Source of the DNA: an uncultured Flavobacteriales bacterium
Lineage (GTDB): Bacteria; Bacteroidota; Bacteroidia; Flavobacteriales; Crocinitomicaceae
Direction of reading: 5' to 3'
DNA length: 36,907 nt
Assembly: GCA_946478775.1 (NCBI GenBank)
Contig: CAMLDR010000018.1
Location: 1-36,907 of the forward strand
Below, one piece after another: positions 8,194 to 36,676 of the stretch; position 1 is the first letter of the stretch; each line of letters starts with the position of its first letter. Under the pieces are notes generated by a model that was not told where the DNA came from, did no database searches, and saw only the letters and a list, made by a program, of their open reading frames with translations. The position numbers were made by a program, and so were the translations under genes.

Positions 8194-9240
8194 ATGAGAG
8201 TACTGATTCTATTTCTATTATTCATTACTGCGGGAACTGCTTTTGCGCAGGACCCCAACTTTTCCCAGTTCTATAACAACCCGATTTATTACAATCCTTC
8301 TATGACGGCTGTAAACAATGGAATTGCATTGAGACTGAATGCGCGTTCATTGTGGGGACCCATTCCGGGAAGATTCAACACCTTCTCTTTCTCTGCCGAG
8401 GCCCAAACGATGTACAAAATGGGATTGGGGATCATGGCTTATTCGGATGTTGGCGGAGAAGCCCTTTTGAGAACTGCAGGCGGTTATGTCAATTATTCCT
8501 ACCGGCCGGTTGATACGAAGAATTTCATTCTGCAAGCCGGTGTAAGCGGTGGTTTTGTTACGAAGAACATTGATTGGTCTAAGCTTACTTTTTCAGATCA
8601 GCTGGATGAAACGATGGGAAAGATCCATGAAAGTTCTTTCAACCGGCCAAATTACAACAGCGTTTCCTACGCGGATTTCAGTGCCGGACTGGTTGCCCGT
8701 TTCAATGGTTCAACCCGAAGACAGCGGGGTTCTTTTAAACGCTTCAACGCAACGCTTGGCGGAGCGATCCATCATTTATCCCAGCCGAAGGACGCTTTCC
8801 TTGCGGACACCGAGCGATTGCCTTTTAAATTGGTTTTCCATGGGTCGGCCAATCTTTTGTTCAACGATTTGGTGGTTTCTCCGGGTGTGGTCTACGAAAT
8901 GCAGAATGAATTCCGGACTTTCAGTGTGGGAAGTAATTTCATCAGTCAGCCGTTCATTATTGGAATCTGGTTCCGGAACCGTACAGCTGCATTGAGTTTC
9001 AAGCAATACGATTCCTTTATTTTCATCCTGGGTCTAAACCTGAGAACCAAATACGAAACGCTCTGGCGTGTGACTTACAATTTTGATATGACGATTTCCC
9101 GCCTCAAAACAAGCAGTTATGGAAGTCATGAACTTTCCTTGCTGTTCGAGATTCCTAATAAAGTATTGTTCTCCAAAAATGTCAACAGCAAAAGTATGCG
9201 CAGAAGGTATCAATGTCCGAAGGAGTTTAGCGGATTTTGA
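8194..9240 (+). CDS. PorP/SprF family T9SS outer-membrane protein
   Basis: The 348-residue product has a signal peptide ending AFAQ and then the family hallmark DPNFSQFYNNPIYYNPSM, followed by alternating beta-strand segments typical of an outer-membrane barrel. PorP/SprF proteins help secrete or anchor partners with type B sorting domains; in Flavobacterium johnsoniae SprF is needed for SprB. The gene starts three bases after the stop of the giant PKD gene, so the two are a matched pair in one transcript. I chose the ATG at 8194 over the GTG at 8191 because the GTG adds only one residue and abuts the upstream stop. The C-terminal tail (about residues 325-348) is basic and Cys-containing, unlike a barrel strand. 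The stop codon lies in an intergenic repeat arm. Confidence 0.9.
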   Translation: MRVLILFLLFITAGTAFAQDPNFSQFYNNPIYYNPSMTAVNNGIALRLNARSLWGPIPGRFNTFSFSAEAQTMYKMGLGIMAYSDVGGEALLRTAGGYVNYSYRPVDTKNFILQAGVSGGFVTKNIDWSKLTFSDQLDETMGKIHESSFNRPNYNSVSYADFSAGLVARFNGSTRRQRGSFKRFNATLGGAIHHLSQPKDAFLADTERLPFKLVFHGSANLLFNDLVVSPGVVYEMQNEFRTFSVGSNFISQPFIIGIWFRNRTAALSFKQYDSFIFILGLNLRTKYETLWRVTYNFDMTISRLKTSSYGSHELSLLFEIPNKVLFSKNVNSKSMRRRYQCPKEFSGF

Positions 9241-9342
9241 AAATTGACAATGGAGAATGTAAAAATTAAAAAGGAAAAAAAACACACATTAATGAAAAGT
9301 GATGCTCCTTTTCAATTCTCATTTTTCAATTTTCAATTAATT
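9238..9342. repeat. Intergenic inverted repeat pair, AAAATTGA family
   Basis: The left arm (9238-9275) begins TGAAAATTGACAATGGAGAA; the right arm (9309-9342), read on the other strand, contains TTGAAAATTGAAAAATGAG. The arms face each other across about 33 bases between two convergent genes. The left arm includes the stop codon of the SprF-like gene and the right arm includes the stop of the response regulator. It may act as a weak bidirectional terminator, but there is no GC-rich stem. Confidence 0.6.
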
Positions 9343-9994
9343 AAACCCATCTCTTCTGCATCGCCAGCCGAACTGCTTCTACTTTGGAATTCACGTGCAG
9401 TTTTTCGTAGATATTGGTCATGTGCTTGCGCACGGTGTGAGGACTGATGAATAGTTCATCGGCAATGATGGTATAACTTTTTCCCTGCGCCAGGCAATTC
9501 AGGATATCCATTTCACGGGAACTCAGCGGACTTGTTTCCGAACCGGATAATTCTACCGGTTGGTTCTGAATGAAACTGTAGGCTTTTTTTGCAATTGCCG
9601 GAGCCAAAGGTGCTGCTCCGAATTCCAATACGTTGTCGATTGCCGCATGCAGGTTTGCAATGGACTCATCTTTCAGTAAATAACCGCTGGCCCCTGCCTG
9701 GATTGCTGAAAAGATGCGCTCTTCGTCATCAAAAACGGTGATCATGATGAAATGAATCTGCGGAAAAAGTGCTTTGGCCTGTTTCACTGCTTCAATTCCA
9801 TCCATGACGGGCATATCGATATCCATGAAAACGATTTGAGGAAAGGGTATCAGAGTTGGAAGCAACTGCAGAAAGGCCTGACCATCAAAAGCTGACATGG
9901 TAATTTTCACGCCCGGTTTGGCTTCCAGCTTTTCAGTCAGTATTTGTACGTTGTACAGTTTGTCATCGACAATTCCAATTGGACAGATTCCCAT
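9341..9994 (-). CDS. NarL/FixJ-type response regulator with LuxR HTH
   Basis: The 217-residue product has a receiver domain at about 5-122, with acidic residues D10-D11, the phospho-acceptor D58 in MDIDMP, T86 and the conserved K108 in GYLLKDES. A LuxR-type helix-turn-helix follows at about 152-212, with LSSREMDILNCLAQGKSY and the recognition helix in ISPHTVRKHMTNIYEKL. It is a cytoplasmic DNA-binding regulator activated by phosphorylation. It lies 36 bases downstream of the TPR histidine kinase gene on the same strand, so that kinase is its likely partner. All the expected key residues are present. Its target genes cannot be read from the window. Confidence 0.95.
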   Translation of the reverse strand: MGICPIGIVDDKLYNVQILTEKLEAKPGVKITMSAFDGQAFLQLLPTLIPFPQIVFMDIDMPVMDGIEAVKQAKALFPQIHFIMITVFDDEERIFSAIQAGASGYLLKDESIANLHAAIDNVLEFGAAPLAPAIAKKAYSFIQNQPVELSGSETSPLSSREMDILNCLAQGKSYTIIADELFISPHTVRKHMTNIYEKLHVNSKVEAVRLAMQKRWV

Positions 9995-10030
9995 AGAAGC
10001 AAATTTGAGGATTTAATCCCGGTTTTCCAA

Positions 10031-11911
10031 TTACGCAATTGTGCTATTTTTCTTCCAGCGAAGAGACAGGATCATGCCGCTATGGCCCTTGCTTTTAGTC
10101 ATGGAATATACTGCACCGATCTTCTCCACGCGCTGCTCAATGCTTTTAAGTCCATAATGGAATTCCGGTTTTACGGCCGGATCAAAACCTATTCCAAAAT
10201 CTTCTATAGAAAGGATAAGTGTATCTCCGGCTTCTTTTAAAGTGATTTCTACTTTTTTGGTTTTGGAATGCCTGTAAATGTTACTGATTCCCTCCTGGAA
10301 GATCCGCATAACGTGCAGGGAAACTCCCGGATCCAGTTCACAATCTGCTGCCTGAACAGTAAACTTCACTTGAATGGAATTATCCTCCAGCCATTTTTTG
10401 GCTACGTTTTTCATGCGGTCAACCAACACTTTCGAAGACATACTTTCCGAATGCAGGGCCCAAACGGTATCCCGCAGCGAGCTCATCGCCTCCTGGCTCA
10501 TGGTATACGTTTTGCTAATCCGTTCGTTTTCTTTATCCTTAAAAGACAGTAATTCCAGGTTATTGACCACGAAACTTAATTGGGAACCAACCAAATCGTG
10601 CAGGTCGTAGGAAATGCGTTTGCGTTCTTCATTGGTAGCCTGAAACACCTGCTGCTGGGAAATCAATTCTCTCTTCAGCGAGCGCCTGATAAAGTAAAAG
10701 ATCAAACTGATCACTGTTAAAATCAGGATAGCAACCAATACAATCCAATAGGTATTCTCCAATTTTCTGTTCAGCTGCTGCTGCAGAATTTCCGCATCTT
10801 TCTTCTTCCGGTAAAGCTCTGAGCGCTGTTTTTCTGATTTGATGCCATAAATCGCATTGGTGCGGGTAATGGTGCGGTCACTCAGCTCTTTGTAGTAGCG
10901 TAAATGATAAAGTTCATACTTGTCCCAAAGAACTCTTGCTTTTTGGTTCTCATTCCTGGACAGGTAAATCATACCAAGTGCTTTGGAAATTTTATACAAC
11001 TGCTCATTTGCCTTCAGCTTTTCTGCAATCGGCAAAGCCTCCAAAAGTATGGCTTCTTCCTGTCTCGGATCTTTCAGGTGTTTATAGACCCGTGCCCAGT
11101 TGATCAGGGTGCTCAAGTACAAATAGTCATTCTCAATATCCTTTGAAAACGCTGCACTTTCCTTATAGATTTCAACTGCTTCGTCGTATCTCTTATAGTC
11201 ATGCAATATCATTGCCTTGTTGCACAAAACAATGGCCAAACCATATTTATTGGAGGTTCTTCGGTAGCCGGTGATCGCCAATTCCGAATAATACAAACTG
11301 GAATCTTTTATTCCGAGGGTATTAAAAGCCGTTCCCATATTCGAATACGCGTCTAGTATCTGATCCTTATGGTTTCCTTTCTTGTAGGATGATATGCTCT
11401 GTCGGTACCAAAAAAGTGCCGTCTTTTCCAAATCCAGTTCCTCGTAAATCAATCCTAAATTGTTTTGAGTAGCTCCTACATTGGCGTAATCTTCCATCTT
11501 CTCAAAGTACAATTTCGCCTTGTGGAAAGATTGGATAGCACGTTTCAGATCGTTTGTCCGCCAATAGATCAGGCCGAGATTATTCTCACAGGAAGCAATT
11601 CCTTTGAAGTAACGGTGCTTTTTAGCGATAGCACCTGCTTTTTTGTAGGCGGCAATGGATAAATCGATTTGAGAAAGCACATCGTAAGCAATTCCTATTC
11701 GGATATACGCCCGAATCTCACCCGGAAAAAAGGCGCATTCATTTGCCTGAGCTACAATTTCCCTACATTCTTTGATGGCCGCTTTCGGATCTTCGTAACA
11801 CAAATCCAGTACCTTGTCATTTCGCTTATTGATCTGATTGGTGTCACATTGTGCACTAACCTTCAGGAAAGAAAGATTCAGAAAAAGAACAAGGAATAGT
11901 AAGTGTTTCAT
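10031..11911 (-). CDS. TPR-containing sensor histidine kinase (HisKA_3 family)
   Basis: The 626-residue product has a signal peptide (about 1-20), then about 350 residues of TPR-type helical repeats in the periplasm (motifs such as NNLGLIYWRTNDLKRAI), a short coiled coil (about 355-385) and one membrane helix (about 388-408). The cytoplasmic part holds a HisKA_3 dimerisation segment with the phospho-accepting H438 in DLHDLVGSQLS, then a HATPase_c domain with the N box around N544 and the G box DFGIGFD at about 571-577. This architecture is common in Bacteroidota and is usually paired with a LuxR-type regulator, as here. The gene begins 17 bases after the propeller/Y_Y_Y sensor gene, suggesting that it relays a signal from that protein. 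The signal is unknown. Confidence 0.94.
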   Translation of the reverse strand: MKHLLFLVLFLNLSFLKVSAQCDTNQINKRNDKVLDLCYEDPKAAIKECREIVAQANECAFFPGEIRAYIRIGIAYDVLSQIDLSIAAYKKAGAIAKKHRYFKGIASCENNLGLIYWRTNDLKRAIQSFHKAKLYFEKMEDYANVGATQNNLGLIYEELDLEKTALFWYRQSISSYKKGNHKDQILDAYSNMGTAFNTLGIKDSSLYYSELAITGYRRTSNKYGLAIVLCNKAMILHDYKRYDEAVEIYKESAAFSKDIENDYLYLSTLINWARVYKHLKDPRQEEAILLEALPIAEKLKANEQLYKISKALGMIYLSRNENQKARVLWDKYELYHLRYYKELSDRTITRTNAIYGIKSEKQRSELYRKKKDAEILQQQLNRKLENTYWIVLVAILILTVISLIFYFIRRSLKRELISQQQVFQATNEERKRISYDLHDLVGSQLSFVVNNLELLSFKDKENERISKTYTMSQEAMSSLRDTVWALHSESMSSKVLVDRMKNVAKKWLEDNSIQVKFTVQAADCELDPGVSLHVMRIFQEGISNIYRHSKTKKVEITLKEAGDTLILSIEDFGIGFDPAVKPEFHYGLKSIEQRVEKIGAVYSMTKSKGHSGMILSLRWKKNSTIA

Positions 11912-11928
11912 AATCCGGTTTTATCGAC

Positions 11929-14076
11929 TTAACTGAGTTCCATTTTTTTTAGTCGTTTTCTCCTTTTCAGGTACAAGAGGCCAAAAAATCCTACCAGGAT
12001 TCCGGCAATGAACCAAACCAGCGTGTCCTCATACCAGGAAGCTTTTATTTTAAAAGAAGTAGAACCAGGAGTTGAATACCTACCCGTTCCAGGATCAAAC
12101 AACCGTAATTCCAAATTATACGTTCCGCGGTTCAGGTGCTCGAAAGTCAATTTGGTCAATCCCAAAGAGGTGTTCGACCAATGTGTCTGCTCTTTCTCCT
12201 CGTTACGAACCAAACGGTACTGCAATTCGTAGGGGTGATTTCCAATTAATTCGACCAGTTCGTATGGAATGTTCACCTCAGTATTTGCCGCTTCAAATTT
12301 AGTGGACTCCCCTTCCCGGTGATCTCCAGTTGGTTTCCCCAAAATAAAGGTTGGGAAATCCTGGAAATCCGGTTTCGTTTTTTCCCATCGGAACTCAAAG
12401 AGCCCGAATTGGGTGGCCACATAGACTTTACTGCCAAGCACCACAAAATCCCTCAGGAACAAATCATTTAGGTGTGAAAGCTCTTCCAAACGCTCCAGGT
12501 TCCCGTTCAATTTTTTTGTGCGATAGAGTGTTTTATCTGAAAGAATGTAAAATTGATCGTTGTATATCTTCAGTTTCGAAACCAGCAGGTTGCTTCCGTT
12601 TTCACGGAAATTTACCTCGTGGGTTACTTTCCCTTTCTTAATTGTAAAAATCTTATTGGCAGAGCTCAAAACATACCAACTGTGCCTGTGAAAAAGAATT
12701 TCCTCCGGATCTATGTTCTCATTGAAATAGCGGATGGAGCGGTATTCCAGCGTATTGAGGTCCAGGGTAAACAATCCGTCCAGGTTTGAAAAAAGAACTT
12801 CATTGGTATCTGACTGCTGAAACAACTTCACCGGGCTTTCCAAAATGACATTCCGGGTATTTCCTTTGTTCAGTTTATCGCGCAATTCTTTGGTTGATTT
12901 TGCTTCCAGACTGAATAATCCCTTGGAGGAAACGATCAGGAAGCTGCCTGTATTCAAAGGCAGGATTTCTTTCACAAATTCATCTGCCAGTATGAGCGGT
13001 AGTTGAATCCCGGTTTGTTTCGATCCGGTTTTCAGCCGCTCTTTTTGAACCTTATTGCTGATTTTTCTTCCGAACTTACTCAGGAGCATCATTTCCCCGG
13101 AGTTACTTCGGGCAATAATCTCATCTTTGTACAAGTCCAGGAAACTGAATTCCGTGGAGTTCAGCAATTTGTAGGAACCATCCGGAATGCAATAGAGGCC
13201 TTTTGATTTGGTACCGAGCCAGATATTCCTGTTTTTATCCCGGAAAACGGCTGTCACATGCAAGCCAACAATAACGGATTTTACGCGCATATCCCCGGCT
13301 TTCAAAACAATCATTCCTGTTTCAGAAAGGAGGTAAACTTTCTCATTCATATGCACCACTTTTTGGACGGAATGGTTGAAAGCACCAATGAGTTTGTTGC
13401 GGTTCTTAAAGCGTTTATTGACATATTCCAGTGAAATATTGGAATTCGGTTTTGCCGGAAAAATGATCAGTCCGTTTTTCTCTCCGATAATCCATCTTCC
13501 GGTCATTCCCGGCAATGTTCGCGCCACCTGGTCGTCCACATCAATCAGCTCATTGCTTGAAAGCAGGGCAAACCGGCCTTTGTCGTTTTCACAGTAATCG
13601 ATCAGTTCAGCCCGCCCTTTTTCATAAAATGGAATGGCTGTTTTTGAAACGAGTGAATACGGATTCGTTTTAAATACATAAACTGCATCCGGACAAAGGA
13701 TCCGCAGGTTTTTATCTTTTGTTTTATCGAGACTCAGGATTTGTCCTTTGAGCTGTGGCAAATGGATCAAAACAACCTCATCGCCTTTGATTGCGAACAG
13801 CTGCCCCGTCCTGTTTAATCCAATGAATTTCCCTTTCAGTTTCAGGAGCTGCACAATGTCTTTGGAATACAATTTGGAAGAAGCAATCTGCCTGGATTGA
13901 AATCCATTGAAGCTGAAAATACCTTTATCGGTCCCTAAGATCAGGCGTCCGAATGCATCTTCTTCAATAGCAGCAATGTGGTGATCTTTCAGGGAAGTTT
14001 CAACCGGGTAATAGTACGATTTTGTTTGTGCAAAAAGAAGTGATGTGAAGAGCAGAAAGACGGGAACTAATCTCAT
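11929..14076 (-). CDS. Periplasmic propeller/Y_Y_Y sensor protein lacking a kinase domain
   Basis: The 715-residue product has a signal peptide (about 1-17, ending LFAQ). A long beta-propeller-like region follows: reg_prop-type motifs occur at about 34-55 (EEDAFGRLILGTDKGIFSF) and near 280-300 (NRNIWLGTKSKGLYCI), with weaker blades between. A Y_Y_Y-like beta-sandwich lies at about 605-675 (YELQYRLV, YNLELRLFD). One membrane helix at about 684-703 is followed by only a dozen mostly basic residues (KRRKRLKKMELS). In one-piece two-component sensors of this class the chain continues into a kinase; here it stops, and the kinase is the next gene. The start overlaps the stop of the pseudouridine synthase gene by four bases (ATGA), indicating translational coupling. 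I infer a ligand-sensing partner for the kinase. Confidence 0.82.
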   Translation of the reverse strand: MRLVPVFLLFTSLLFAQTKSYYYPVETSLKDHHIAAIEEDAFGRLILGTDKGIFSFNGFQSRQIASSKLYSKDIVQLLKLKGKFIGLNRTGQLFAIKGDEVVLIHLPQLKGQILSLDKTKDKNLRILCPDAVYVFKTNPYSLVSKTAIPFYEKGRAELIDYCENDKGRFALLSSNELIDVDDQVARTLPGMTGRWIIGEKNGLIIFPAKPNSNISLEYVNKRFKNRNKLIGAFNHSVQKVVHMNEKVYLLSETGMIVLKAGDMRVKSVIVGLHVTAVFRDKNRNIWLGTKSKGLYCIPDGSYKLLNSTEFSFLDLYKDEIIARSNSGEMMLLSKFGRKISNKVQKERLKTGSKQTGIQLPLILADEFVKEILPLNTGSFLIVSSKGLFSLEAKSTKELRDKLNKGNTRNVILESPVKLFQQSDTNEVLFSNLDGLFTLDLNTLEYRSIRYFNENIDPEEILFHRHSWYVLSSANKIFTIKKGKVTHEVNFRENGSNLLVSKLKIYNDQFYILSDKTLYRTKKLNGNLERLEELSHLNDLFLRDFVVLGSKVYVATQFGLFEFRWEKTKPDFQDFPTFILGKPTGDHREGESTKFEAANTEVNIPYELVELIGNHPYELQYRLVRNEEKEQTHWSNTSLGLTKLTFEHLNRGTYNLELRLFDPGTGRYSTPGSTSFKIKASWYEDTLVWFIAGILVGFFGLLYLKRRKRLKKMELS

Positions 14077-14780: not shown

Positions 14781-14783
14781 GGA

Positions 14784-15599: not shown

Positions 15600-15618
15600 G
15601 AGCGATAATTTTAGCTAA

Positions 15619-15626
15619 CAAAGTTA
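15619..15626 (-). promoter_or_regulatory. Likely -7 box for the panB operon
   Basis: TAACTTTG on the minus strand matches TAnnTTTG exactly and lies 20 bases upstream of the panB start codon. No clear -33 TTG was found at the usual distance. Confidence 0.45.
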
Positions 15627-15627
15627 A

Positions 15628-15741
15628 GTAATTACGAATTACGAATGCCTAATTACGAATGTTTAGATTGTTAGTTAGTGTGTCGAATTCCCCGAACAGT
15701 TTAATTCTATTAGGAATTTGTAATTGGGAATTCGTAATTAC
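15628..15741. repeat. Intergenic inverted repeat pair, AATTACGAAT family
   Basis: The left arm (15628-15661) begins GTAATTACGAATTACGAAT; the right arm (15710-15741), read on the other strand, begins GTAATTACGAATTCCCAATT. The arms are separated by about 48 bases. The right arm contains the stop codon of the DUF721 gene. The same family recurs at 17145-17258 and 17767-17805. Confidence 0.65.
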
Positions 15742-16049
15742 TCGAACCAAACATCGTGGATGATCTGCTTTCCGGCAGTTTGATTGACGCGTTCAATAAT
15801 GATCTGTTTTCCGTGTGCCAATTCGTCGCGCATAACAGAAGAATTCAAACGGATGATGAGCACTCCCAACCGGATTTGAAGATTGGTCGTTCTGACTGCT
15901 ACCGCTTTACCCATCATTTCTTCCCACTTGCTCAAAACTTCCATTTCGGTCATTTTCCCCTGTAGTTGGTAAGCACTCATGAGCTTGTCTACCAATTCTT
16001 TCATCGGCTGGGCATTGCCGGTTCTTTTGCGTTCGTCCCAATCGTTCAT
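15738..16049 (-). CDS. DUF721 (DciA-like) domain protein
   Basis: The 103-residue product fits the DUF721 family in length and pattern: an N-terminal helix with MKELVDKLMSAYQL, the segment VLSKWEEMMGKAVA, then strand-rich LIIRLNSSVMRDELAHGKQIIIERVN, ending in a short IIHDVWFE strand. DciA proteins of this family load the replicative helicase in many bacteria that lack DnaC; whether this short form does so is inference. The gene overlaps recF by four bases, so the two are translationally coupled, which fits a role in DNA replication or repair. The cytoplasmic product has no signal peptide. Confidence 0.85.
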   Translation of the reverse strand: MNDWDERKRTGNAQPMKELVDKLMSAYQLQGKMTEMEVLSKWEEMMGKAVAVRTTNLQIRLGVLIIRLNSSVMRDELAHGKQIIIERVNQTAGKQIIHDVWFE

Positions 16050-17140: not shown

Positions 17141-17144
17141 CTTA

Positions 17145-17152
17145 CAAAATTA
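17145..17152 (-). promoter_or_regulatory. Possible -7 box for recF inside a repeat
   Basis: TAATTTTG on the minus strand matches TAnnTTTG but lies only four bases before the recF ATG, so a transcript from it would be nearly leaderless. The box belongs to an AATTACGAAT-family repeat, so it may be fortuitous. Confidence 0.25.
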
Positions 17153-17258
17153 CGAATTGCTAATTACCAATTACGAATTATTTGTTGCCAATTCGCAATT
17201 AAAATGTGCCTTCCATCAGCAGCCGTTAACTCAGTTACCTTTTAATTCGTAATTTTCC
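17145..17258. repeat. Second AATTACGAAT-family inverted repeat
   Basis: The left arm (17145-17205) contains AAAATTACGAATTGC, then CCAATTACGAATTA; the right arm (17239-17258), read on the other strand, gives GGAAAATTACGAATTAAAA. The element fills most of the spacer between the divergent recF and NTF2-like genes. Confidence 0.6.
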
Positions 17259-17285
17259 ATATAAACATCAAATTTCCTGGAATTT

Positions 17286-17771
17286 ATGAAAAACCTGTTC
17301 CTTTTTTGCTTCCTAACAATCAGTTGGTTTTCTTCCGCACAAATCGAAAACAATTCGGTACTTTACAAAACCATTCTTTCGAAAGACAGTTTGCTGTTCA
17401 ACGTTGGCTTCAATACCTGCGACATTTCTCAATTCGAAAAACTGGTTAGCGTGAATTTTGAGTTCTTTCATGACAAAGCCGGGATTTCGGACAGAAAAAA
17501 ATTCCTGAGCGACATTCAAAACGGATTGTGTAAATCACCGGAAACGTTTCAATCCAGGAGAGAACTGATCCCTGAGAAAACACAGGTTTTTCCGCTTTAT
17601 GAGGACGGCGAACTCTACGGGGCAATCCAGTACGGAGAACACCGCTTTTATGAAAAGATGGATGGCAAACCGGAACAATTTGCCAGTAAAGCGAAATTCA
17701 CGCATGTCTGGATCATTGAAGACGGGAAGTGGAAATTGAAATCCGGGTTGAGTTATGATCACCAAAAATAA
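17286..17771 (+). CDS. Secreted NTF2-like (DUF4440-type) protein
   Basis: The 161-residue product has a signal peptide (about 1-19, ending SSAQ) and a single compact domain with the pattern of a cone-shaped NTF2-like fold: an N-terminal helical segment with LLFNVGFNTCDISQFEKLVS, a strand FEFFHDKAGI, helix DRKKFLSDIQNGL, then strands ending in FTHVWIIEDGKWKLKSGLSYDHQ. That last strand pattern is typical of DUF4440-like proteins. Such proteins bind small molecules or act as accessory domains; I cannot assign a ligand. It is probably periplasmic. Transcription runs away from recF. Confidence 0.8.
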   Translation: MKNLFLFCFLTISWFSSAQIENNSVLYKTILSKDSLLFNVGFNTCDISQFEKLVSVNFEFFHDKAGISDRKKFLSDIQNGLCKSPETFQSRRELIPEKTQVFPLYEDGELYGAIQYGEHRFYEKMDGKPEQFASKAKFTHVWIIEDGKWKLKSGLSYDHQK

Positions 17772-17805
17772 TTGCCAATTACTAATGGCTAATTACAAAT
17801 TAATT
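17767..17805. repeat. Single AATTAC-family repeat arm
   Basis: The stretch contains AATTGCCAATTACTAATGG and CTAATTACAAATTAATTG, related to the arms at 15628 and 17145. It overlaps the end of the NTF2-like gene and supplies the ATG of the SRPBCC fragment. No opposing arm was found nearby. Confidence 0.5.
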
Positions 17806-17958
17806 GATTATCCGCAGCGGGTTGAAAAAAGTATTTTGATTCAAGCTCCAACGCCGAAAGTATGGAAACACCTGACCAATCCTGCTTTGATGCGCGAACG
17901 GATGGGCGATCCGGAAATGAAGATTGAGATTCCTATAGAATGGAAAGGGGGAAATTAA
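17785..17958 (+). pseudogene. Truncated SRPBCC/START-like protein fragment
   Basis: This 57-codon frame encodes the opening of an SRPBCC (AHSA1/START-like) domain: VEKSILIQAPTPKVWKHLTNPALMRERMGDPEMKIEI, with the usual I.APp..VW..LT.P.....M pattern. Full-length members run to about 140-160 residues, but here the frame stops just after WKGGN. Reading on past the stop stays open for about 30 codons but resembles nothing from the family. The start codon lies in an AATTAC-family repeat, and the first residues come from it. It is most likely a gene remnant left by deletion. A functional micropeptide is possible but unsupported. Confidence 0.45.
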
Positions 17959-18015
17959 GGATTGAAGCAGCAAATTAGTTTTCCAGTTTATTCTGAAAAA
18001 AGAGGTAAAAGGAAC

Positions 18016-18023
18016 TACCTTTA
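18016..18023 (+). promoter_or_regulatory. Possible -7 box for the membrane VWA gene
   Basis: TACCTTTA, one base off TAnnTTTG, lies 33 bases before the ATG at 18057. No clear -33 TTG was found. Confidence 0.35.
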
Positions 18024-18056
18024 TAAACTTATTGATCAAAATCAGCAATAACCGGC

Positions 18057-19469: not shown

Positions 19470-19506
19470 TCGAAGTATTGATCATGCTATTTACAGTAAA
19501 TTCTGC

Positions 19507-19514
19507 TACCTTCA
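19507..19514 (+). promoter_or_regulatory. Possible -7 box for the Cys-rich lipoprotein gene
   Basis: TACCTTCA, close to TAnnTTTG, sits 16 bases upstream of the ATG at 19531. Confidence 0.35.
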
Positions 19515-19530
19515 CTTAAAATTCTGAGTT

Positions 19531-20001: not shown

Positions 20002-20030
20002 GAGCCAGTGATAGGTGGTGAAACTAACCG

Positions 20031-20050: not shown

Positions 20051-20124
20051 TTACATACCCCATTCTTTTTCATTCGTTTTGAACCAAACAACAACATCGT
20101 TGTATTCCTTCAAAACGCCAAAGT

Positions 20125-21249: not shown

Positions 21250-21256
21250 GAGGAAG

Positions 21257-21287
21257 ATCCCCTGAGTAATATCGGGGGATTTTTTTG
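21257..21287 (+). terminator. Rho-independent terminator after the secreted VWA gene
   Basis: ATCCCC (21257-21262) pairs with GGGGAT (21275-21280) and is followed by seven T residues. Confidence 0.85.
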
Positions 21288-21434
21288 TTTCCCACAGAGG
21301 AACACAAAAGAACACGGATGTATATTGCTTACTAAAATATTTCTCAAATGACTTTTCCCTTTTGTTCTGGTAATGTCATATTAAATTCTACAACAAGTTT
21401 AACCTCTGTGTTCATCCTTGCCCGTTCGTGGGAA
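21288..21434. repeat. Intergenic inverted repeat pair, CACAGAGGAACAC family
   Basis: The left arm (21288-21320) reads TTTCCCACAGAGGAACAC and on to GGATG; the right arm (21401-21434), read on the other strand, begins TTTCCCAC and contains GGATGAACACAGAGG. The arms share TTTCCCAC, GGATG and ACAGAGG in a different order, and 80 bases separate them. It fills the spacer between a terminator and the next promoter. Confidence 0.6.
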
Positions 21435-21469
21435 AAATTAAGAATCGGTATCAATTGTGAATGATTCCC

Positions 21470-24593: not shown

Positions 24594-24618
24594 TGAAAAA
24601 ATGCACTAAATTTATCGG

Positions 24619-25758: not shown

Positions 25759-25762
25759 CATA

Positions 25763-25829
25763 CTTCGACTCCGCTCAGTATCCTTTCGTATTGCCTATCT
25801 TATTTAAAGGTGACTGAGCGGAGTCGAAG
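25763..25829. repeat. Long palindromic hairpin element (CTTCGACTCCGCTCAGT family)
   Basis: A perfect 17-bp inverted repeat, CTTCGACTCCGCTCAGT at 25763-25779 and ACTGAGCGGAGTCGAAG at 25813-25829, continues after a 2x2 internal loop into CCTTT/AAAGG, giving 22 base pairs around a 19-base loop. It lies between the glycosyltransferase and the GreA-like gene. It is REP-like in form; no T-run follows. Confidence 0.85.
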
Positions 25830-25853
25830 GCACTTTATGACTGAACTTCCTCT

Positions 25854-26297: not shown

Positions 26298-26352
26298 AAA
26301 AATCCCACTGGAAAAGCTTATATTTGAGTGCCAGCAAAATCCTTTTAGTCAA

Positions 26353-26372
26353 ATGTTAACTCCATGTTAACT
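26353..26372. promoter_or_regulatory. PHO-box-like direct repeat upstream of the TonB receptor
   Basis: ATGTTAACT occurs twice with a two-base gap, giving an 11-bp period. Read on the minus strand this is TTAACA-N5-TTAACA, the pattern bound by Bacillus PhoP. It lies about 99 bases before the receptor start codon. A related box precedes the next gene. The link to a PhoB-type regulator is inference. Confidence 0.4.
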
Positions 26373-26445
26373 GACTTCATAATTTGTTTACACAAGCCTC
26401 ACAATGCAATAATTTTACACTTAATTTAGAATAATCTGATAGCTG

Positions 26446-26453
26446 TTCCTTTG
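26446..26453 (+). promoter_or_regulatory. Possible -7 box for the TonB receptor gene
   Basis: TTCCTTTG, one base off TAnnTTTG, ends 17 bases before the ATG at 26471. It overlaps the alternative GTG start at 26453, which favours the later ATG. Confidence 0.3.
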
Positions 26454-26470
26454 TGGCAAAATTAATAGCT

Positions 26471-29443: not shown

Positions 29444-29463
29444 GATCCAACGACGCCTGAGAG

Positions 29464-29496
29464 GCCACCCGTGATGCGGGTGGCTTTTCTTTTTTA
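29464..29496 (+). terminator. Rho-independent terminator after the TonB receptor gene
   Basis: GCCACCCG (29464-29471) pairs with CGGGTGGC (29477-29484) around a five-base loop and runs into TTTTCTTTTTT. The receptor and the downstream gene thus probably have separate or partly read-through transcripts. Confidence 0.88.
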
Positions 29497-29505
29497 TAAT
29501 TTACA

Positions 29506-29541
29506 GTAGGAATGAATCCCGCACATGCGGGACGCCCCTAC
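29506..29541. repeat. Short palindromic repeat, GTAGG...TCCCGCA family
   Basis: TCCCGCA (29517-29523) and TGCGGGA (29526-29532) form a tight stem, with outer GTAGG (29506-29510) facing CCTAC (29537-29541). No T-run follows. It lies 10 bases beyond the terminator. Confidence 0.65.
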
Positions 29542-29580
29542 TAAATCGATTGAGCCAATATTAAATTAATGCTACATTCC

Positions 29581-29597
29581 TTAAAACACTCTTAACA
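29581..29597 (+). promoter_or_regulatory. PHO-box-like direct repeat upstream of the T9SS partner gene
   Basis: TTAAAA and TTAACA are separated by five bases (11-bp period), like the box before the TonB receptor but on the other strand. It lies 83 bases before the start codon. Its role is inferred. Confidence 0.35.
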
Positions 29598-29679
29598 TTT
29601 ATTTACTCGAATCGTAACTTAAAGGAAAGGATAGAACAAGGTGAGTAAGGCAATTTTGTACCAAGAAAAAAAACGAAAA

Positions 29680-31305: not shown

Positions 31306-31366
31306 AAAATAAGCTACTACAAAGCTTAGAAGAGTTTTCTCTGTTAGTTTAGTTTTATAGCAAAGT

Positions 31367-31397
31367 AAAAGGGTTCGTTTCGGCGGACCCTTTTTTT
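31367..31397 (+). terminator. Rho-independent terminator after the T9SS partner gene
   Basis: GGGTTCG (31371-31377) pairs with CGGACCC (31384-31390), with one G-T pair, around a six-base loop. A run of A precedes and seven T residues follow. Confidence 0.88.
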
Positions 31398-31416
31398 ATC
31401 TCCAAAAGTTCCATGA

Positions 31417-31469
31417 TTCAAAAGGTTAAAAAGTTAAAAACCATTGAACTTTTTATCTCTTTGAACTTG
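31417..31469. repeat. Intergenic inverted repeat pair, TTCAAAAGGTTAAA family
   Basis: The left arm (31417-31440) reads TTCAAAAGGTTAAAAAGTTA; the right arm (31444-31469), read on the other strand, contains TTCAAAGAGATAAAAAGTTC. The arms are almost adjacent. The right arm supplies the TTG that may be the -33 box of the next gene. Confidence 0.6.
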
Positions 31470-31496
31470 TTTCGACCTCTAATATCCGTACCTTCG
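31467..31496 (+). promoter_or_regulatory. Promoter-like pair for the FMN reductase gene
   Basis: TTG at 31467-31469 is followed after 19 bases by TACCTTCG at 31489-31496, close to the TTG-N19-TAnnTTTG consensus of Bacteroidota. The ATG is 14 bases downstream. Confidence 0.5.
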
Positions 31497-31510
31497 TTAA
31501 AACAAATCCT

Positions 31511-32044
31511 ATGAAAATATTAGCATTCGGAGCAAGTACCAGTAAGTCTTCTATCAATCAGCAATTTGCACATTTTGCTGCCAGCCAGTTTGAAGGAGAG
31601 GTCAATATGATTGATTTAAACGACTTCGAAATGCCGGTATTTTCTGTAGATAAAGAAAAAGAAGACGGATATCCGGTACAAGCACATGAATTGCATGAAA
31701 TCATTGAAAATGCTGATTTTTTAGTTATTTCAATGACGGAACACAACGGAAGTTATTCTGCGGCATTCAAAAATACGCTGGATTGGTGTTCCCGGTTAAA
31801 CAATAGTGTATTCCACGACAAGCCCATGCTGCTGATCTCTACTTCTCCCGGAAAATTGGGTGCAAAGTTCTCTTTGGAGGCTGCATTAAGCCGTTTTCCG
31901 CGCCATTCGGCAAATATTCTGGGACATTTTAGTTTACCCAGTTTCGGAGAAAATTTCAATGATGGGATTACCAACGAAGAATTGGCAAAAGAATTCAATG
32001 ATCTGATCGCAAATGTGAAAGAAACCTTATCTAAGCTCAAATAA
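31511..32044 (+). CDS. NAD(P)H-dependent FMN reductase
   Basis: The 177-residue product is a flavodoxin-like NADPH-dependent FMN reductase. The FMN phosphate loop is GASTSKSSIN near the N-terminus, and the flavin-contacting motif is SMTEHNGSYSAAFKNTLDW (about 75-93), the equivalent of the family's PEYNGS..LKN.LDW. It reduces flavins or quinones using NAD(P)H; the acceptor is unknown. It is cytoplasmic. Its 3' end overlaps the convergent bshB1 gene by 18 bases, so the two cannot share a terminator, and antisense effects are possible. Confidence 0.92.
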   Translation: MKILAFGASTSKSSINQQFAHFAASQFEGEVNMIDLNDFEMPVFSVDKEKEDGYPVQAHELHEIIENADFLVISMTEHNGSYSAAFKNTLDWCSRLNNSVFHDKPMLLISTSPGKLGAKFSLEAALSRFPRHSANILGHFSLPSFGENFNDGITNEELAKEFNDLIANVKETLSKLK

Positions 32045-32746
32045 GGATGCTACTCCAATGATTCTTTCAGCGGTATATCCTTCGGCATAACGCACCCCCA
32101 TATTCCGTCCAAATTCAGCCATTCTTCCACGAAGGAACTCAAAAAACTCTTCTCCGGAGATCGGTGTTTTCGGTTCGGATGAGTTCGGGTCCCAGAATTG
32201 AGTCTTGTAAGCTTTGATCGAATCGAATTTCTGTTCCACAAAATCCGTTACATCAATCACAAAATCCGGTTTCAGATAACGGTCCTGGATATAATGATAA
32301 ACGGCTTGAGGTCTGTGTGCTTCCTGAGGCTCGCCATTCCAGGTAGTTTCAATTCTTCTCAATCCTGCCAAAAAACAAGCTTCAGAAGCCAGCTTACTCC
32401 CCTTTCCATGATCCGGATGACGGTCGGAAACAGCATTAACTAGGACAATACTTGGTTTAAATCGTCGGATTTGCTCAATCAGCAATCGCAGGTTCTCTTC
32501 GGAATGTTCGAAAAATCCGTCTGCCATTTTCAAATTCACCCGATCCGTCAAACCTAAGATCTTCGCAGCAGCTTCCGCCTCTTCTTTACGAATTTCCTTT
32601 GATCCCCTCGACCCCAATTCGCCCTGCGTCAAATCAATGATTCCGGTGGAATACCCCATTGCCCGGTGTTTCAATAAAGTTCCTGCAGCAGAAAGCTCCA
32701 CATCATCCGGGTGTGCACCGATTGCTATGACATCAATTTGACTCAT
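32027..32746 (-). CDS. bshB1: Bacillithiol biosynthesis deacetylase BshB1
   Basis: The 239-residue product is a PIG-L-type zinc deacetylase. The opening IGAHPDDVELSAAGTL carries the metal and catalytic residues H12, D14 and D15, and the second motif DRHPDHGKGS supplies H113. QGELGSRGS and the conserved NPSSxP-like tail region mark the BshB1 subgroup. It removes the acetyl group from GlcNAc-malate in bacillithiol synthesis, the main low-molecular-weight thiol route in many Bacteroidota. It overlaps the glutathione peroxidase gene by four bases, so the two are coupled. No bshA or bshC lies in the window. Confidence 0.94.
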   Translation of the reverse strand: MSQIDVIAIGAHPDDVELSAAGTLLKHRAMGYSTGIIDLTQGELGSRGSKEIRKEEAEAAAKILGLTDRVNLKMADGFFEHSEENLRLLIEQIRRFKPSIVLVNAVSDRHPDHGKGSKLASEACFLAGLRRIETTWNGEPQEAHRPQAVYHYIQDRYLKPDFVIDVTDFVEQKFDSIKAYKTQFWDPNSSEPKTPISGEEFFEFLRGRMAEFGRNMGVRYAEGYTAERIIGVASLFELR

Positions 32747-33207
32747 GACTTTTTAATCCAATCTAAAATTTGTGCATCAGCGGGTTCCGTTTGCGGTGAA
32801 AAATAACCGGCAATTTTCCCCTCCTGATCAATCAGGTATTTCTGAAAATTCCAGGTCACTTCCGTACCTGTTTGTTCTTTCAGCCATTCATAAATCGGAT
32901 GAATCTCCTCACCTACGGTATGAACTTTTTCTGAAAGCGGGAAGCTGACCCCGTAGTTCGCAGAACAAAAGGCAGCAATTTCCTCCGCTGTTCCCGGTTC
33001 CTGTCCTGCAAAATCATTACAGGGAATTCCAAGGATCACAAAATGATCCCCACCAAATTCGGCATAGAGCTCTTGCAGCTGCGTATACTGAGGAGTTAAC
33101 CCACATTGTGAAGCCACATTCACCAACAGCACTTTCTTGCCTTTAAAAGCATCCCAGTCAATGGATTTCCCATCCAGGTATTTCAATGAAAAGTCATACA
33201 ATCTCAT
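32743..33207 (-). CDS. Glutathione peroxidase-like thiol peroxidase
   Basis: The 154-residue product has the thioredoxin-fold pattern of the glutathione peroxidase family. The peroxidatic Cys is C35 in NVASQCGLT; the other catalytic residues are Q69 in IPCNDFAGQEPG and the Trp-Asn of TWNFQKYL. C63 or C81 (AFCSAN) could serve as resolving Cys, which would fit a thioredoxin-dependent rather than glutathione-dependent enzyme. It has no signal peptide and so is cytoplasmic. It overlaps ccsBA upstream and bshB1 downstream by four bases each, placing peroxide removal in one transcript with heme handling and bacillithiol synthesis. Confidence 0.94.
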   Translation of the reverse strand: MRLYDFSLKYLDGKSIDWDAFKGKKVLLVNVASQCGLTPQYTQLQELYAEFGGDHFVILGIPCNDFAGQEPGTAEEIAAFCSANYGVSFPLSEKVHTVGEEIHPIYEWLKEQTGTEVTWNFQKYLIDQEGKIAGYFSPQTEPADAQILDWIKKS

Positions 33208-36200
33208 AGCGATTCTCTTTGAGCTTTAAGGTAGTTTTTATTTTTAACTCCTGCAATGATAGTCACGATCAGGAAGCCTAAAACAACCAGCCAGACCCAA
33301 ATAGGAAGATTCACAGAACCATCACCGTTTGCATAAGAATGTAGACCTACCAGGATAAAGTTCACCCCAAAGAAGGTAAACAAAATCGCCGCATAACCCC
33401 ACATCGCAGCTGTATTGAATGCAAATTTTCCTTTCAAACCGGGAATGAACCTGAAATGTAAAATAATCGAATAAACCAGAACGGAAACCAAAGCCCACGT
33501 TTCTTTCGGGTCCCAGCCCCAGTATCTTCCCCAGGATTCGTTGGCCCAAATACCACCAAGGAAAGTTCCGATTGTCAGCATAAATAAACCAACAATCATC
33601 GTCATTTCAGAAACATAGGTCAGCTCATTGATATTTCTTGTAGCTTTTTTAGCATTTTCCGGATTCCTGAATAAATACAATACCATATTGAAAATCCCCA
33701 AAATACAAGCTAAACCAAGGAAACCATAACTTCCCGTAATAATCGCTACGTGGATCATCAACCAATAACTTTTCAGTACAGGAGGCAATTGTGTGATTTC
33801 AGGATCCAACAAATTCATTTCTGTAACGAAGATCATAAACGCAGCCAATAATGCAGCTCCGGCCAAAATACCCGGATTTGTTCTGGCAAAAATAAATCCT
33901 GCCAACATGGTTACCCAACCAATGAAAACAACCGCTTCATAACCGTCACTCCATGGAACGTGTCCGGAAACATACCAACGCAGTCCCAAACCGGTTCCGT
34001 GATACAAGAAAACAATCACCAAAAAGAATACGAATATTTTACGAATGATCGAATAGCGTTTTTCCGACTTTTCAGACGGGTTGAACAATACCCGAATAAA
34101 GAATACGATCATTAATCCCAAGCCCAATAACAAATAAGAGTACTCCGAATTCTTGAAAATCTCCATTTTATTATAGGAAACTTCAATTTTGGCGTGTGTT
34201 TCAGATGGCAAAATCGATGCAGGGGCAATTGTACGCTGGGCCTTTTTCAATTCATTCAACAACTTGGTTGATTTGGTGAAGTCATTGTTCGATTTTGCCG
34301 CATCATTCAATGAACTGATATAGGTTAAAGCCAGCTTGCTGGTAACGGTATCACTCATCATTACTTCCTGGCTAAAAGGCATGTACCAATTAATGACCTT
34401 CCCTTCTTTTAAAGGAATAATTTTCATGTATTGCCATCTGATGACTGCAGAGAAAACCTGGTATTTTTCACCCAGCTTGATCAACTTTTTTTCAGCCTCG
34501 GATTGCTGGGATTCTGCTTTTCTCAAAGCGGTATTGTAATCTGCTATCCATTTAAAGTCACCGGTTTCATTCGTTAATTCTCTGAAAGAAGCATATTTAC
34601 CCAAACTGTATTTTTCCTTTAAAGCGGCCGGAACCTGAATCACCTTTTGGTCCATCCAATAATCCGGGTACATATGCATACTCAAGATAGTCTGAATAGC
34701 ATTTCTATCGTCATATTTATTAGCCCGGTACAGTTTTCTCAATAACTGATCACAAACAGTATGCATTGGAACAATACGGTTCTTAAAATCTTTAACCAAT
34801 AGGGTTGCCAATTCATCACTTTGCTCTTCCGAAATATAATACACTACCGGATTTACACTCCTTACCGGGGCGCTGCTTTCCGCATGATCGTGATTGTGGT
34901 CATGGTCGTGATCGTGAATCTGATTTTCTTCCTGTTTGTGTGCATGAGTTTCAATGTTCTGTCCAAATACAGAGAAACTGCTTAGCGCCAAAACAAGGAC
35001 AACAATATTCTTTCCATTCGAATTAGCAATATTCCGCATCAATTCTCTGAAACGGGAAGCCGGAGCAAACAAACTAAAGATCATCCCGATAAACATCATT
35101 AAATAACCAAAATAAGTAATGTTCGTTCCCCAGAAATCATGGTTTACGCTCAAAATGGTTCCCTGCTCATCCGCATCATAAGAAGACTGGAAGAAACGGT
35201 AACCTCCGTAATCGAGTACATTATTCATAAATACATGTTTTGTCCCGAATTCATTGTTCGCCGTATCCAAGACCTGTAAATCACTGGCATAAGAAGAAGG
35301 CATATCCGATCCGGAATACCGGTCCAGTGTAAAATCATTGCATTTCATGTAGAATGGAATAGTAATGCGCTTCATTCCATATTCCAAATGATAATTCAAT
35401 CCGTTGAATTCGAAAAAAGCAGGTTCTCCAACCATTTTTTCGCCGCCTTTCAGACGAACGATCTTTGATTTGGAGCCATCCGTGATTTTCACAGTCAGGT
35501 AATCCGACCCCACGTCTCTTTTCCCTGACGGGACCAATATCTTTCCAACGTTCGGAATTTCCTGTTTGAACACAAATTGCTGTCCGGCAACCAGGTAAAG
35601 CGTTGTTGTAGCGAATATGATTTCTTCTCCCGGAACAACATTGGTATACGCCGAATCAGGTGGAGCCATGCCGCTCTCACGGATTTTCTTCATTTCGCTC
35701 ATGGCCAGATACTGCATAGGCAGTTCCGACCTCAAACGAAGGGTATCATTCTTGCGGTAAACATTGATTCCTTTCACCAGGTTTTCCGAAAAGGCCAACG
35801 GAATTCCATTCAAAGAGAAAATCTCATCATTAACAACATAATTGGACTTTTTTCCATCCGTCACAATATCCAGTGCGCTCGTTTTGTATTTCGGATCAAT
35901 ATCGATGGTATCCAGTTGTTTCGACTTAAAATCAACATACTCAATGGAAACTGCTGTTTTACGCTTGGGAAATTCAATATCCATCGATGCGGAATTGAAG
36001 GGGTAAGATTCTGCAAGGTAAGTTCTCACATCATGCGTCAGCTGGTATTCTTTCCCGTCATTGACCTGCACCCACAAATACGGGTCTGAGGTATAAACAA
36101 TATTGGAAGAAGCTCCTTCACGAATAGGCATAATCCCTTCGTAGCTGATATAGCGGGTTATCGCTGCTCCGATAATAATCACAATGAAAGAAATATGAAA

Positions 36201-36440
36201 AAGCAGCACCGCTATCTTCTCACGTCTCCACATTTGATACCGGAAAATATTTGCAATCAGGTTCACACTTAAGAAAGCCAGCAAAATCTCAAACCATTTG
36301 GCATTGTAGACCCATAGCTTTGCGGCCTGGGTTGTTTCATAGGATTCGATAAAAGTAGCTATTGCAATTGCTGAAAGGAAGATGAATAATCCCAGTGCCA
36401 TTGCTCTCATCGAGAAAAGAGCTTTTGCTAGTGTGTCCAT
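33204..36440 (-). CDS. ccsBA: Fused ResB/CcsA cytochrome c synthase (CcsBA)
   Basis: The 1078-residue product is a fusion of ResB (CcsB) and CcsA, the System II heme exporter and cytochrome c synthase. N-terminal helices (about 10-100, with TM-His H82 in FHISF) surround a long periplasmic ResB region; a helix lies at about 441-460. The C-terminal part has helices from about 768 onward, the heme-binding motif WGRYWGWDPKETW (about 970-982), His residues H897 (MIHVA), H995 (ILHFRF) and H1034 (GLHSYA), which fit the periplasmic and membrane His pairs known for CcsBA. Two oddities stand out. An internal segment at about 476-494 (VVLVLALSSFSVFGQ) looks like a signal peptide, and a His/Asp-rich stretch (about 499-519) follows it. 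The gene ends overlapping the peroxidase gene by four bases. Confidence 0.95.
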   Translation of the reverse strand: MDTLAKALFSMRAMALGLFIFLSAIAIATFIESYETTQAAKLWVYNAKWFEILLAFLSVNLIANIFRYQMWRREKIAVLLFHISFIVIIIGAAITRYISYEGIMPIREGASSNIVYTSDPYLWVQVNDGKEYQLTHDVRTYLAESYPFNSASMDIEFPKRKTAVSIEYVDFKSKQLDTIDIDPKYKTSALDIVTDGKKSNYVVNDEIFSLNGIPLAFSENLVKGINVYRKNDTLRLRSELPMQYLAMSEMKKIRESGMAPPDSAYTNVVPGEEIIFATTTLYLVAGQQFVFKQEIPNVGKILVPSGKRDVGSDYLTVKITDGSKSKIVRLKGGEKMVGEPAFFEFNGLNYHLEYGMKRITIPFYMKCNDFTLDRYSGSDMPSSYASDLQVLDTANNEFGTKHVFMNNVLDYGGYRFFQSSYDADEQGTILSVNHDFWGTNITYFGYLMMFIGMIFSLFAPASRFRELMRNIANSNGKNIVVLVLALSSFSVFGQNIETHAHKQEENQIHDHDHDHNHDHAESSAPVRSVNPVVYYISEEQSDELATLLVKDFKNRIVPMHTVCDQLLRKLYRANKYDDRNAIQTILSMHMYPDYWMDQKVIQVPAALKEKYSLGKYASFRELTNETGDFKWIADYNTALRKAESQQSEAEKKLIKLGEKYQVFSAVIRWQYMKIIPLKEGKVINWYMPFSQEVMMSDTVTSKLALTYISSLNDAAKSNNDFTKSTKLLNELKKAQRTIAPASILPSETHAKIEVSYNKMEIFKNSEYSYLLLGLGLMIVFFIRVLFNPSEKSEKRYSIIRKIFVFFLVIVFLYHGTGLGLRWYVSGHVPWSDGYEAVVFIGWVTMLAGFIFARTNPGILAGAALLAAFMIFVTEMNLLDPEITQLPPVLKSYWLMIHVAIITGSYGFLGLACILGIFNMVLYLFRNPENAKKATRNINELTYVSEMTMIVGLFMLTIGTFLGGIWANESWGRYWGWDPKETWALVSVLVYSIILHFRFIPGLKGKFAFNTAAMWGYAAILFTFFGVNFILVGLHSYANGDGSVNLPIWVWLVVLGFLIVTIIAGVKNKNYLKAQRESL

Positions 36441-36468
36441 GTAAAAACGGATTGATAATTTTCAGTTG

Positions 36469-36476
36469 CAAAAATA
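36469..36476 (-). promoter_or_regulatory. Likely -7 box for the ccsBA operon
   Basis: TATTTTTG on the minus strand matches TAnnTTTG exactly and lies 28 bases upstream of the ccsBA start codon. Confidence 0.45.
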
Positions 36477-36540
36477 ACGATTCGTTTGGGTTTTCGGTCT
36501 AAATAATGGCGCAATAATGAGAAAATAGCATTGCACCTAT

Positions 36541-36676
36541 TTCTCCCGCAGATCACGCGGATTACGCAGAAGAAAATACTATCAGGAAAGAAATGACGCT
36601 GTTTATCTCAGCCAAAAATAATCTGAAACAGATACCAGTAATAAAATCAGCGGGATCCGCGAAATCAGCGGGCAAA
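36541..36676. repeat. Intergenic inverted repeat pair, CCCGCAGAT family
   Basis: The left arm (36541-36577) contains TCTCCCGCAGATCACGCGGA; the right arm (36643-36676), read on the other strand, contains TTGCCCGCTGATTTCGCGGA. About 65 bases separate the arms. It fills most of the 372-base spacer between ccsBA and the zinc-ribbon gene. From 36441 to 36812 I see no other gene. Confidence 0.65.

Follow-up and report, generated by a model that had tools for sequence, protein, structure and literature searches.

Facing repeat arms in the spacers of a Fluviicola-like genome: probable ORF-less relatives of selfish units resembling 23S rRNA intervening sequences

The window, the whole 36,907-nucleotide (nt) stretch of DNA analyzed here, is Fluviicola-like (Bacteroidota), and several of its intergenic spacers hold two short repeat arms that face each other as an inverted pair. 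A sequence-only reading had listed eight such spacers, all between genes. We compared the best gapped inverted repeat in each of 17 window spacers of at least 25 nt with those of 60 dinucleotide shuffles (lowest attainable P = 0.016). The arms are described below by grammar, named after the small open reading frames (ORFs) that similar arms enclose in related genomes (IVP/S23, GxxExxY, and GIY-YIG).

All 60 shuffles were beaten by three of the eight listed spacers. In the convergent spacer 9241-9340, arms TTGAAAATTGACAATGGAGAATG and CATTTTTCAATTTTCAATT (9238..9340), with a heptad-like grammar, face each other across a 30-nt loop; members of this family are also ORF-less at other loci in two relatives (G001 and G005). 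Spacer 15600-15737 holds facing arrays of AATTACG heptads without an ORF (15624..15742) and ranges from 38 to about 1,180 nt in relatives, and spacer 25759-25853 holds facing CTTCGACTCCGCTCAG arms with a 19-nt loop and GIY-YIG grammar (25763..25829). Pairing was borderline in four others: 21250-21456 (P = 0.049), with CACAGAGGAACACA-type facing arms at 21288..21437, and 36441-36789 (P = 0.049), with CCCGCAGATCACGCGGATTACGCAGA facing arms at 36540..36677, both ORF-less and of GxxExxY grammar; 31306-31510 (P = 0.066), with TTCAAAAGGTTAAAAAG facing arms of IVP-type grammar at 31417..31470; and 17141-17285 (P = 0.098), where an AATTACG array has a short facing partner at 17243-17256 (whole feature 17145..17258). 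The facing pairs are real as a set, though not each singly. The eighth site fell away as a two-arm pair: pairing in spacer 29444-29640 was not significant against the 60 shuffles (P = 0.33), and 29506..29540 is a single GTAGG...CCTAC hairpin. Further hairpins at the shuffle floor lie at 1052-1091 and 20075-20117. The window elements sit in convergent, co-directional, and divergent spacers, and their confinement to spacers was nearly right, except that the 9238 arm and an array at 17770 begin inside stop codons. The latter is an unpaired heptad array missed by the first reading (AATTGCC AATTACT AATGGCT AATTACA; 17770..17805). By eye, positions 17772-18056 look like the decayed remains of an SRPBCC-type ORF lying between two genes; none of the relatives tested yielded the right-hand anchor of this spacer. 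Heptad-type window arms match themselves at lag 7 (0.61) and lag 14 (0.58) against an expected 0.35. An Rfam scan of the window gave no family at gathering score.

Eleven related genomes (G001 to G011) were used; identity to the window RecF, in the best segment, was 92 to 98% for G001 to G006 and G008, 75 to 77% for G007 and G011, and 55 to 56% for G009 and G010. The seven closest records are labelled Fluviicola, Flavobacteriales, and once Glaciecola; the last, CP034120.1 (locus L005, Glaciecola amylolytica), has a RecF 94% identical to that of the window and is syntenic over much of a 21-kb stretch, and its label looks wrong. In these relatives the arm families are multi-copy. Exact copies of CTTCGACTCCGCTCAG numbered 61 in G001, 30 in G003, 16 in G002, 8 in G004, and 3 in G005, with none in the other 6 of 11 genomes and 0 copies of the reversed-pattern control. 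Within 150 nt of each other in G001, CTTCGACTCCGCTCAG pairs were 15 times +/- and never -/+ (hand count over 61 places). Runs of four AATTNNN heptads numbered 78, 78, 53, 51, 26, 3, 4, 8, 0, 0, and 27 in G001 to G011, respectively, and the control pattern gave 0 everywhere except 1 in G008. Palindromes of the form TCCCGATA..TATCGGGA lie inside or beside AATTACG heptad arrays in L001, L297, and one G001 stretch, as if they targeted such arrays. A stricter, ungapped screen (score of at least 16) of 60 stretches totalling 1.2 Mb from four relatives found 36 pairs between genes, 13 within coding sequence, and 13 mixed, compared with 15 for one shuffle; 21 of the 36 intergenic pairs have loops under 10 nt and are terminator-like.

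In these relatives, facing arms enclose tiny ORFs of two main families: IVP/S23 (TIGR02436/PF05635, the four-helix-bundle "23S IVP/S23") and GxxExxY (TIGR04256/PF13366, Pfam PDDEXK_3). Both PF13366 and PF05635 occur in nine of the eleven genomes, the same nine that have heptads, and neither was found in G009 or G010, which also have no heptads. We scored the best match between the 220 nt upstream and the reverse complement of the 220 nt downstream of each Pfam-matched core, with a threshold of 16, at 30 listed of 43 PF05635 matches and 30 listed of 48 PF13366 matches (the Fluviicola set). Facing arms scoring at least 16 were present at 19 of 30 IVP loci, as heptad arms, and at 19 of 29 GxxExxY loci (a thirtieth, at a contig edge, was dropped), as CACAGAG/CGCAGATT-type arms; as L147 and L154 are parts of the same gene, the latter count is 19 of 28 genes. 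The same score was reached by 4 of 334 control ORFs and by 0.5% of 1,200 random cores. In an even draw of 80 Bacteroidota genomes, IVP was matched in 61 and GxxExxY in 39, and among the best-scoring loci, one per genome, arms were found at 21/30 and 24/30, respectively. IVP loci from many-copy genomes, scored with 260-nt flanks, had arms in 29 of 40 cases.

The arms of a unit match each other far more often than they match those of other units. Own pairs versus cross-pairs scoring at least 16 were 19/30 versus 47/870 for Fluviicola IVP, 20/29 versus 45/812 for Fluviicola GxxExxY, 16/27 versus 45/702 for phylum IVP, and 22/28 versus 52/756 for phylum GxxExxY (short loci dropped). When the cores were shifted by 1 kb, the same four sets gave 1/60, 0/58, 1/54, and 1/56, and same-direction matches in the first three were 4/30, 5/29, and 5/27. 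The arms are thus matched within the unit, and the association of ORF and arms is shown by these counts.

A third ORF family and other phyla extend this pattern. One CTTCGACTCCGCTCAG pair in G002, with arms 410 nt apart, encloses a GIY-YIG ORF (PF01541, E = 1.4e-17). Among nine GIY-YIG loci (the G002 locus and 8 of 12 listed plasmid hits, from 58 matched records), six had facing arms scoring at least 16, with the G002 locus at 15, and 3 of 72 cross-pairs reached 16 (highest, 26.5). A phmmer search with the G002 GIY-YIG protein over the window and L001 to L341 (frames of at least 50 amino acids, E of 1e-5) returned only the self-match. On cyanobacterial plasmids (28 matched records), facing heptad arms flanked IVP at all ten loci examined of 15 listed hits, some of them close relatives, compared with 16 of 90 cross-pairs; these arms match themselves at lag 7 (0.60) and lag 14 (0.57). 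Several of these loci lie between operon genes (cas6-cas4, cas10-cmr3, and two ribonucleotide reductase subunits), and L342, L344, and L351 are heptad-armed IVP genes between cas genes of cyanobacterial plasmids. Plasmid GxxExxY genes had arms in 4 of 6 loci examined (of 7 records), with 4 of 30 cross-pairs.

Arm grammar follows the protein family. IVP arms scoring at least 16 match themselves at lags 7 and 14 (0.48 and 0.42 in the Fluviicola set, 0.46 and 0.47 in the phylum set; expected, 0.31 to 0.32), although lag 8 also reaches 0.41 in the Fluviicola set. GxxExxY arms have no lag-7 or lag-14 self-match, only a weak rise at lags 8 to 10 (L211 left out). Heptad seeds are diverse (AATTACG, AAGACTA, AGGACTT, GGTGAAC, AGCTAAC, GGAGTCA, and others). 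Arm similarity exceeded 0.5 in 11 of 11 IVP pairs with at least 85% protein identity, in 38% of 16 pairs at 70 to 85%, in 29% of 24 pairs at 60 to 70%, and in 0 to 1% below 60%. The seed thus varies between units yet is shown to follow the protein lineage. L158 has arms 0.60 to 0.68 similar to those of L161 and L168, with proteins 70 to 71% identical, while the flanks of L161 and L168 match each other and not L158, i.e., it lies at a different locus; this case shows that arms and ORF travel together, though not necessarily that one recognizes the other. The first reading's single design with differing seeds therefore stands for arms that match within a unit and for sister-species spacers that carry other families or none, but its single class of elements does not, since the facing-arm design is shared by at least three arm grammars, which correspond to three ORF types.

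At the genome level, 79 Bacteroidota genomes were counted (G005 left out), and AATTNNN runs of four were present in 3 of the 19 that lack IVP, 5 of the 29 with one to four copies, and 28 of the 31 with at least five copies (Spearman 0.64 between run and IVP counts). Strict heptad-spacer counts and bulk lag-7 autocorrelation were also tried for separating IVP-rich from IVP-free genomes and were discarded as not specific, underpowered, or not significant (lag-7 z of -1.8 for IVP-free, 1.0 for IVP-rich, and 2.8 for the window).

Most window arms match arms that flank ORFs in relatives. The 16 window arms were compared with the flanks of Fluviicola ORF loci and with 60 shuffles each (floor P = 0.016; P values uncorrected for the 16 tests). 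Both arms of 15628 match IVP loci L163, L173, and L167 (P = 0.016), the left array of 17145 matches the IVP arms of L163 and L173 (P = 0.016; right arm at 17243, P = 0.033), and the 17770 array matches an arm of L163 (IVP; P = 0.016). Both arms of 21288 match the GxxExxY locus L144 (score 26, P = 0.016), and both of 25763 match those on either side of the L339 GIY-YIG ORF (P = 0.016, with scores of 19 and 23). The left arm of 36541 matches the GxxExxY locus L142 (P = 0.016), and its right arm (36647; P = 0.049) has an IVP flank among its equal-best matches. The right arm of 31417 matches the IVP locus L181 (P = 0.016); its left arm was not above shuffles (P = 0.20).

Orthologous spacers may be filled, ORF-less, or empty even at 97% flank identity, and they are re-occupied by other families. 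The 25758 spacer has CTTCGACTCCGCTCAG arms in the window, TTCAAAAAG-like arms in G002 and G008, and AAGACTAAAGAC-like arms in G004, and the genes abut in G005 and G006. The 31305 spacer holds TTCAAAAGG arms in the window and a CTTCGACTCCGCTCAG pair in G001; the arms at 9240 are AATTGAC in the window and AATTATC in four relatives; and at 36440 the window and G002 share CGCAGATT arms, G001 and G004 have a different palindrome, and G005 and G006 have neither. The 21249 spacer in G002 (L149) carries an unbroken GxxExxY frame (TIGR04256) between ACATAG arms, and in G001 the loop retains 19 C-terminal GxxExxY residues (84% identity, E = 4.6e-10, 38 bits); the window loop at 21288 has no GxxExxY remnant above shuffles (best of 50 window-spacer shuffles, 19 bits). 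In the spacer between the orthologs of 15600 and 15738 (L002), G002 has an 883-nt insertion beside AATTACG arms that, by eye, seems to contain small ORFs.

Three sites (A, C, and D) allow filled and empty states to be compared for IVP. At site A, an AAGACTA-armed IVP in G003 corresponds to a short spacer without IVP in G002, with flanks 97% identical; G001 and G004 are filled, G005 and G008 have other palindromes, and G006 has an IVP with AGGACTT arms (L158). Since the backbone is common to G002, G005, and G008, this suggests that the unit was gained, possibly through recombination, in the G003 line; alternatively, it may have been lost from G002. L290 and L288 carry CCTCCCTTGAGGGAGG-like palindromes at site A where sister species hold the IVP unit. 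At site C, IVP is present in G003 and absent from G002 (flanks 95 to 97% identical; G001 not placed). At site D, the IVP of G002 and G003 lies between AATTACC arms, the arms of G001 (AATTACG) enclose no ORF, and the spacer of G004 is shorter and has no IVP. Comparison of syntenic spacers, as first proposed, thus yields all three states but no clean insertion junction.

Taken together, the ORF-less elements of the window spacers are probably members, leftovers, or derivatives of selfish units with an arm–ORF–arm layout that resemble the intervening sequences of 23S rRNA. A full unit, judged by eye, would span ~450 to 700 nt, a single gene of ~105 to 150 codons lying between two facing arms that consist of short degenerate repeats. 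We found three classes: IVP/S23 with 7-nt tandem arms, GxxExxY with CACAGAG/CGCAGATT-like arms, and GIY-YIG with CTTCGACT..CTCAG-like arms. Such units would spread as selfish DNA, with the folded arms or an empty site as the target of the encoded protein. Homing-like gene conversion would be the most likely route, because GxxExxY and GIY-YIG, two of the three proteins, are members of nuclease superfamilies. Pairing of the arms in the transcript could make a unit tolerable within an operon, much as for the 23S rRNA intervening sequence, which RNase III processes, and loss of the ORF would leave short facing pairs like those of the window.

Several observations weigh against this reading. Movement of a unit is inferred, and none was observed; the three filled/empty comparisons gave no clean junction and, by eye, no target-site duplication, and the site A element replaces about 30 nt. 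IVP is not known to have an enzymatic fold, and it may therefore not mobilize anything itself. From one fifth to more than one third of the IVP and GxxExxY loci have no arms at the score used, direct-orientation matches are common at phylum GxxExxY genes (14/28), and the GIY-YIG link in Fluviicola is one locus. Many Fluviicola loci are orthologous to each other and hence not independent; many close protein pairs are likewise orthologous, or possibly so, and whole units descending together account for part of the link of seed to protein. IVP count correlates with the reversed control pattern too (Spearman 0.41), so composition contributes to the AATT-run correlation. Strict period-7 tandems occur in 8 of 553 sampled Fluviicola spacers, beside 7 each for periods 8 and 11, and bulk lag-7 autocorrelation in Fluviicola is not significant (z = 1.4). 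In the window, the 9238 arms (P = 0.31 to 0.39) and the 29506 hairpin (P = 0.61) do not match ORF arms above shuffles.

Among the alternatives, an origin in situ is unlikely but fares best: slipped-strand mispairing would make the heptad tandems, template switching at quasi-palindromes would make the second arm, and the ORFs would be captured passengers, with no mobility. Degenerate heptads, seeds that differ between loci, and arm matching mostly within a locus all fit this account, as do the intergenic TAACTGA heptads reported in PMC4679880 without an ORF link being described there. It sits poorly with the same families at many unrelated loci and species, arms tied to three ORF families and not to control ORFs, seeds that go with the protein lineage, and paired CTTCGACT copies facing in one orientation only. 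That the arms are regulatory or terminator hairpins maintained by the host for expression is very unlikely: some do lie just after terminators or between convergent genes, but they are found in convergent, co-directional, and divergent spacers alike and are absent or replaced in relatives. Least credible is the RAYT-type origin first suggested, with elements moved by Y1 transposases, since, although the inverted doublets resemble hairpin-forming REPINs (as described in PMC3116915) and a PF01797 gene occurs in 6 of 11 genomes (0 to 3 matches per genome over all eleven), PF01797 has no match in the heptad-bearing G003, G008, and G011, all seven scorable RAYT loci are without arms of at least 16 (the eighth is at a contig edge), and the genes between arms are IVP/S23, GxxExxY, and GIY-YIG. 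A RAYT/Y1 origin was rejected for the arm classes tested, which do not include the GTAG hairpin at 29506.

Beyond the selfish-unit reading of the window, we tentatively suggest a general class in which unrelated tiny proteins (Avd-like IVP, PDDEXK-type GxxExxY, and GIY-YIG) may each run a selfish unit whose sole constant is the facing repeat arms, with grammar set by protein class and a drifting seed. The 23S rRNA intervening sequence would be its rRNA-located case, and much unexplained short repeat content of Bacteroidota, Cyanobacteria, and other phyla (heptads, CACAGAG/CGCAGATT, and CTTCGACT..CTCAG) could be ORF-less debris. For one IVP, matches were to five chains each of PDB entries 2gsc and 2rld and, weakly and below cut-off, to the Avd model of diversity-generating retroelements; Avd and PF05635 are described as homologous in PMC10053308. 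A structure search with GxxExxY gave no match. Such units would be a candidate source for several unexplained bacterial repeat families, possibly sharing one kind of origin, and would give genomic context to TIGR02436 (four-helix-bundle) and TIGR04256 (GxxExxY), NCBIfam names without function. The old question of how the 23S intervening sequence moves becomes testable. There is also a warning, in that genes of these families in cas or other operons may be insertions and not functional partners; a figure legend in a paper on rare CRISPR systems (PMC10910872) includes 23S rRNA IVP in its domain abbreviations. In the open-access literature we recognized no paper joining IVP, GxxExxY, or GIY-YIG ORFs to facing heptad arms outside rRNA, a weak negative with subscription papers and preprints outside its scope.

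Among known systems, miniature inverted-repeat transposable elements (MITEs) such as BrickBuilt, as presented in PMC4596501, are likewise intergenic and gene-less with inverted ends. Unlike MITEs, the elements here have variable repeat arrays as ends. No target-site duplication was evident by eye in the three filled/empty comparisons, and no transposase parent is known; the window elements share arms with ORF-bearing units, whose three ORF families include no known transposase. Degenerate intergenic 7-nt tandems are also seen in the short tandemly repeated repetitive (STRR) heptanucleotides of cyanobacteria, in the TAACTGA heptads of PMC4679880, and in the heptad-type window arms; unlike the STRR and TAACTGA heptads, the units here have facing pairs around IVP ORFs and a seed that differs per unit. 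REPINs of the RAYT system are, as the accounts in PMC3116915 and PMC3733652 have it, short, intergenic, hairpin-forming, multi-copy inverted doublets, and CTTCGACTCCGCTCAG is indeed an inverted doublet of a repeated oligonucleotide; the GTAG/CGTC REPs (PMC3733652) are among the nearest prior work. In contrast to REPINs, the arms here are tandem-repeat arrays, the loops hold other ORF families, and no RAYT link was found, no RAYT gene being flanked by the same repeat at the 7 of 8 loci that could be scored.

The closest likeness is to the 23S rRNA intervening sequence, which in Coxiella is described (PMC4990558) as forming a stem in which RNase III cuts and carrying an S23 ORF with adjoining heptameric repeats. 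The units share the facing complementary arms around an IVP/S23 ORF and the heptameric repeats beside it: complementary terminal arms are present at most loci, though not all, and an S23/IVP ORF lies in the loop of ORF-bearing relatives (TIGR02436/PF05635), while the window copies are ORF-less. Unlike the intervening sequence, which lies in 23S rRNA at helices 9, 25, or 45, the window elements lie between protein genes, and the units at large are found in operons as well as in spacers of protein genes; a genome has several of them, short ORF-less forms exist, and the seeds are many. The 23S rRNA intervening sequence is called selfish in PMC4990558, where horizontal transfer is proposed for it, and the units described here are probably selfish likewise.

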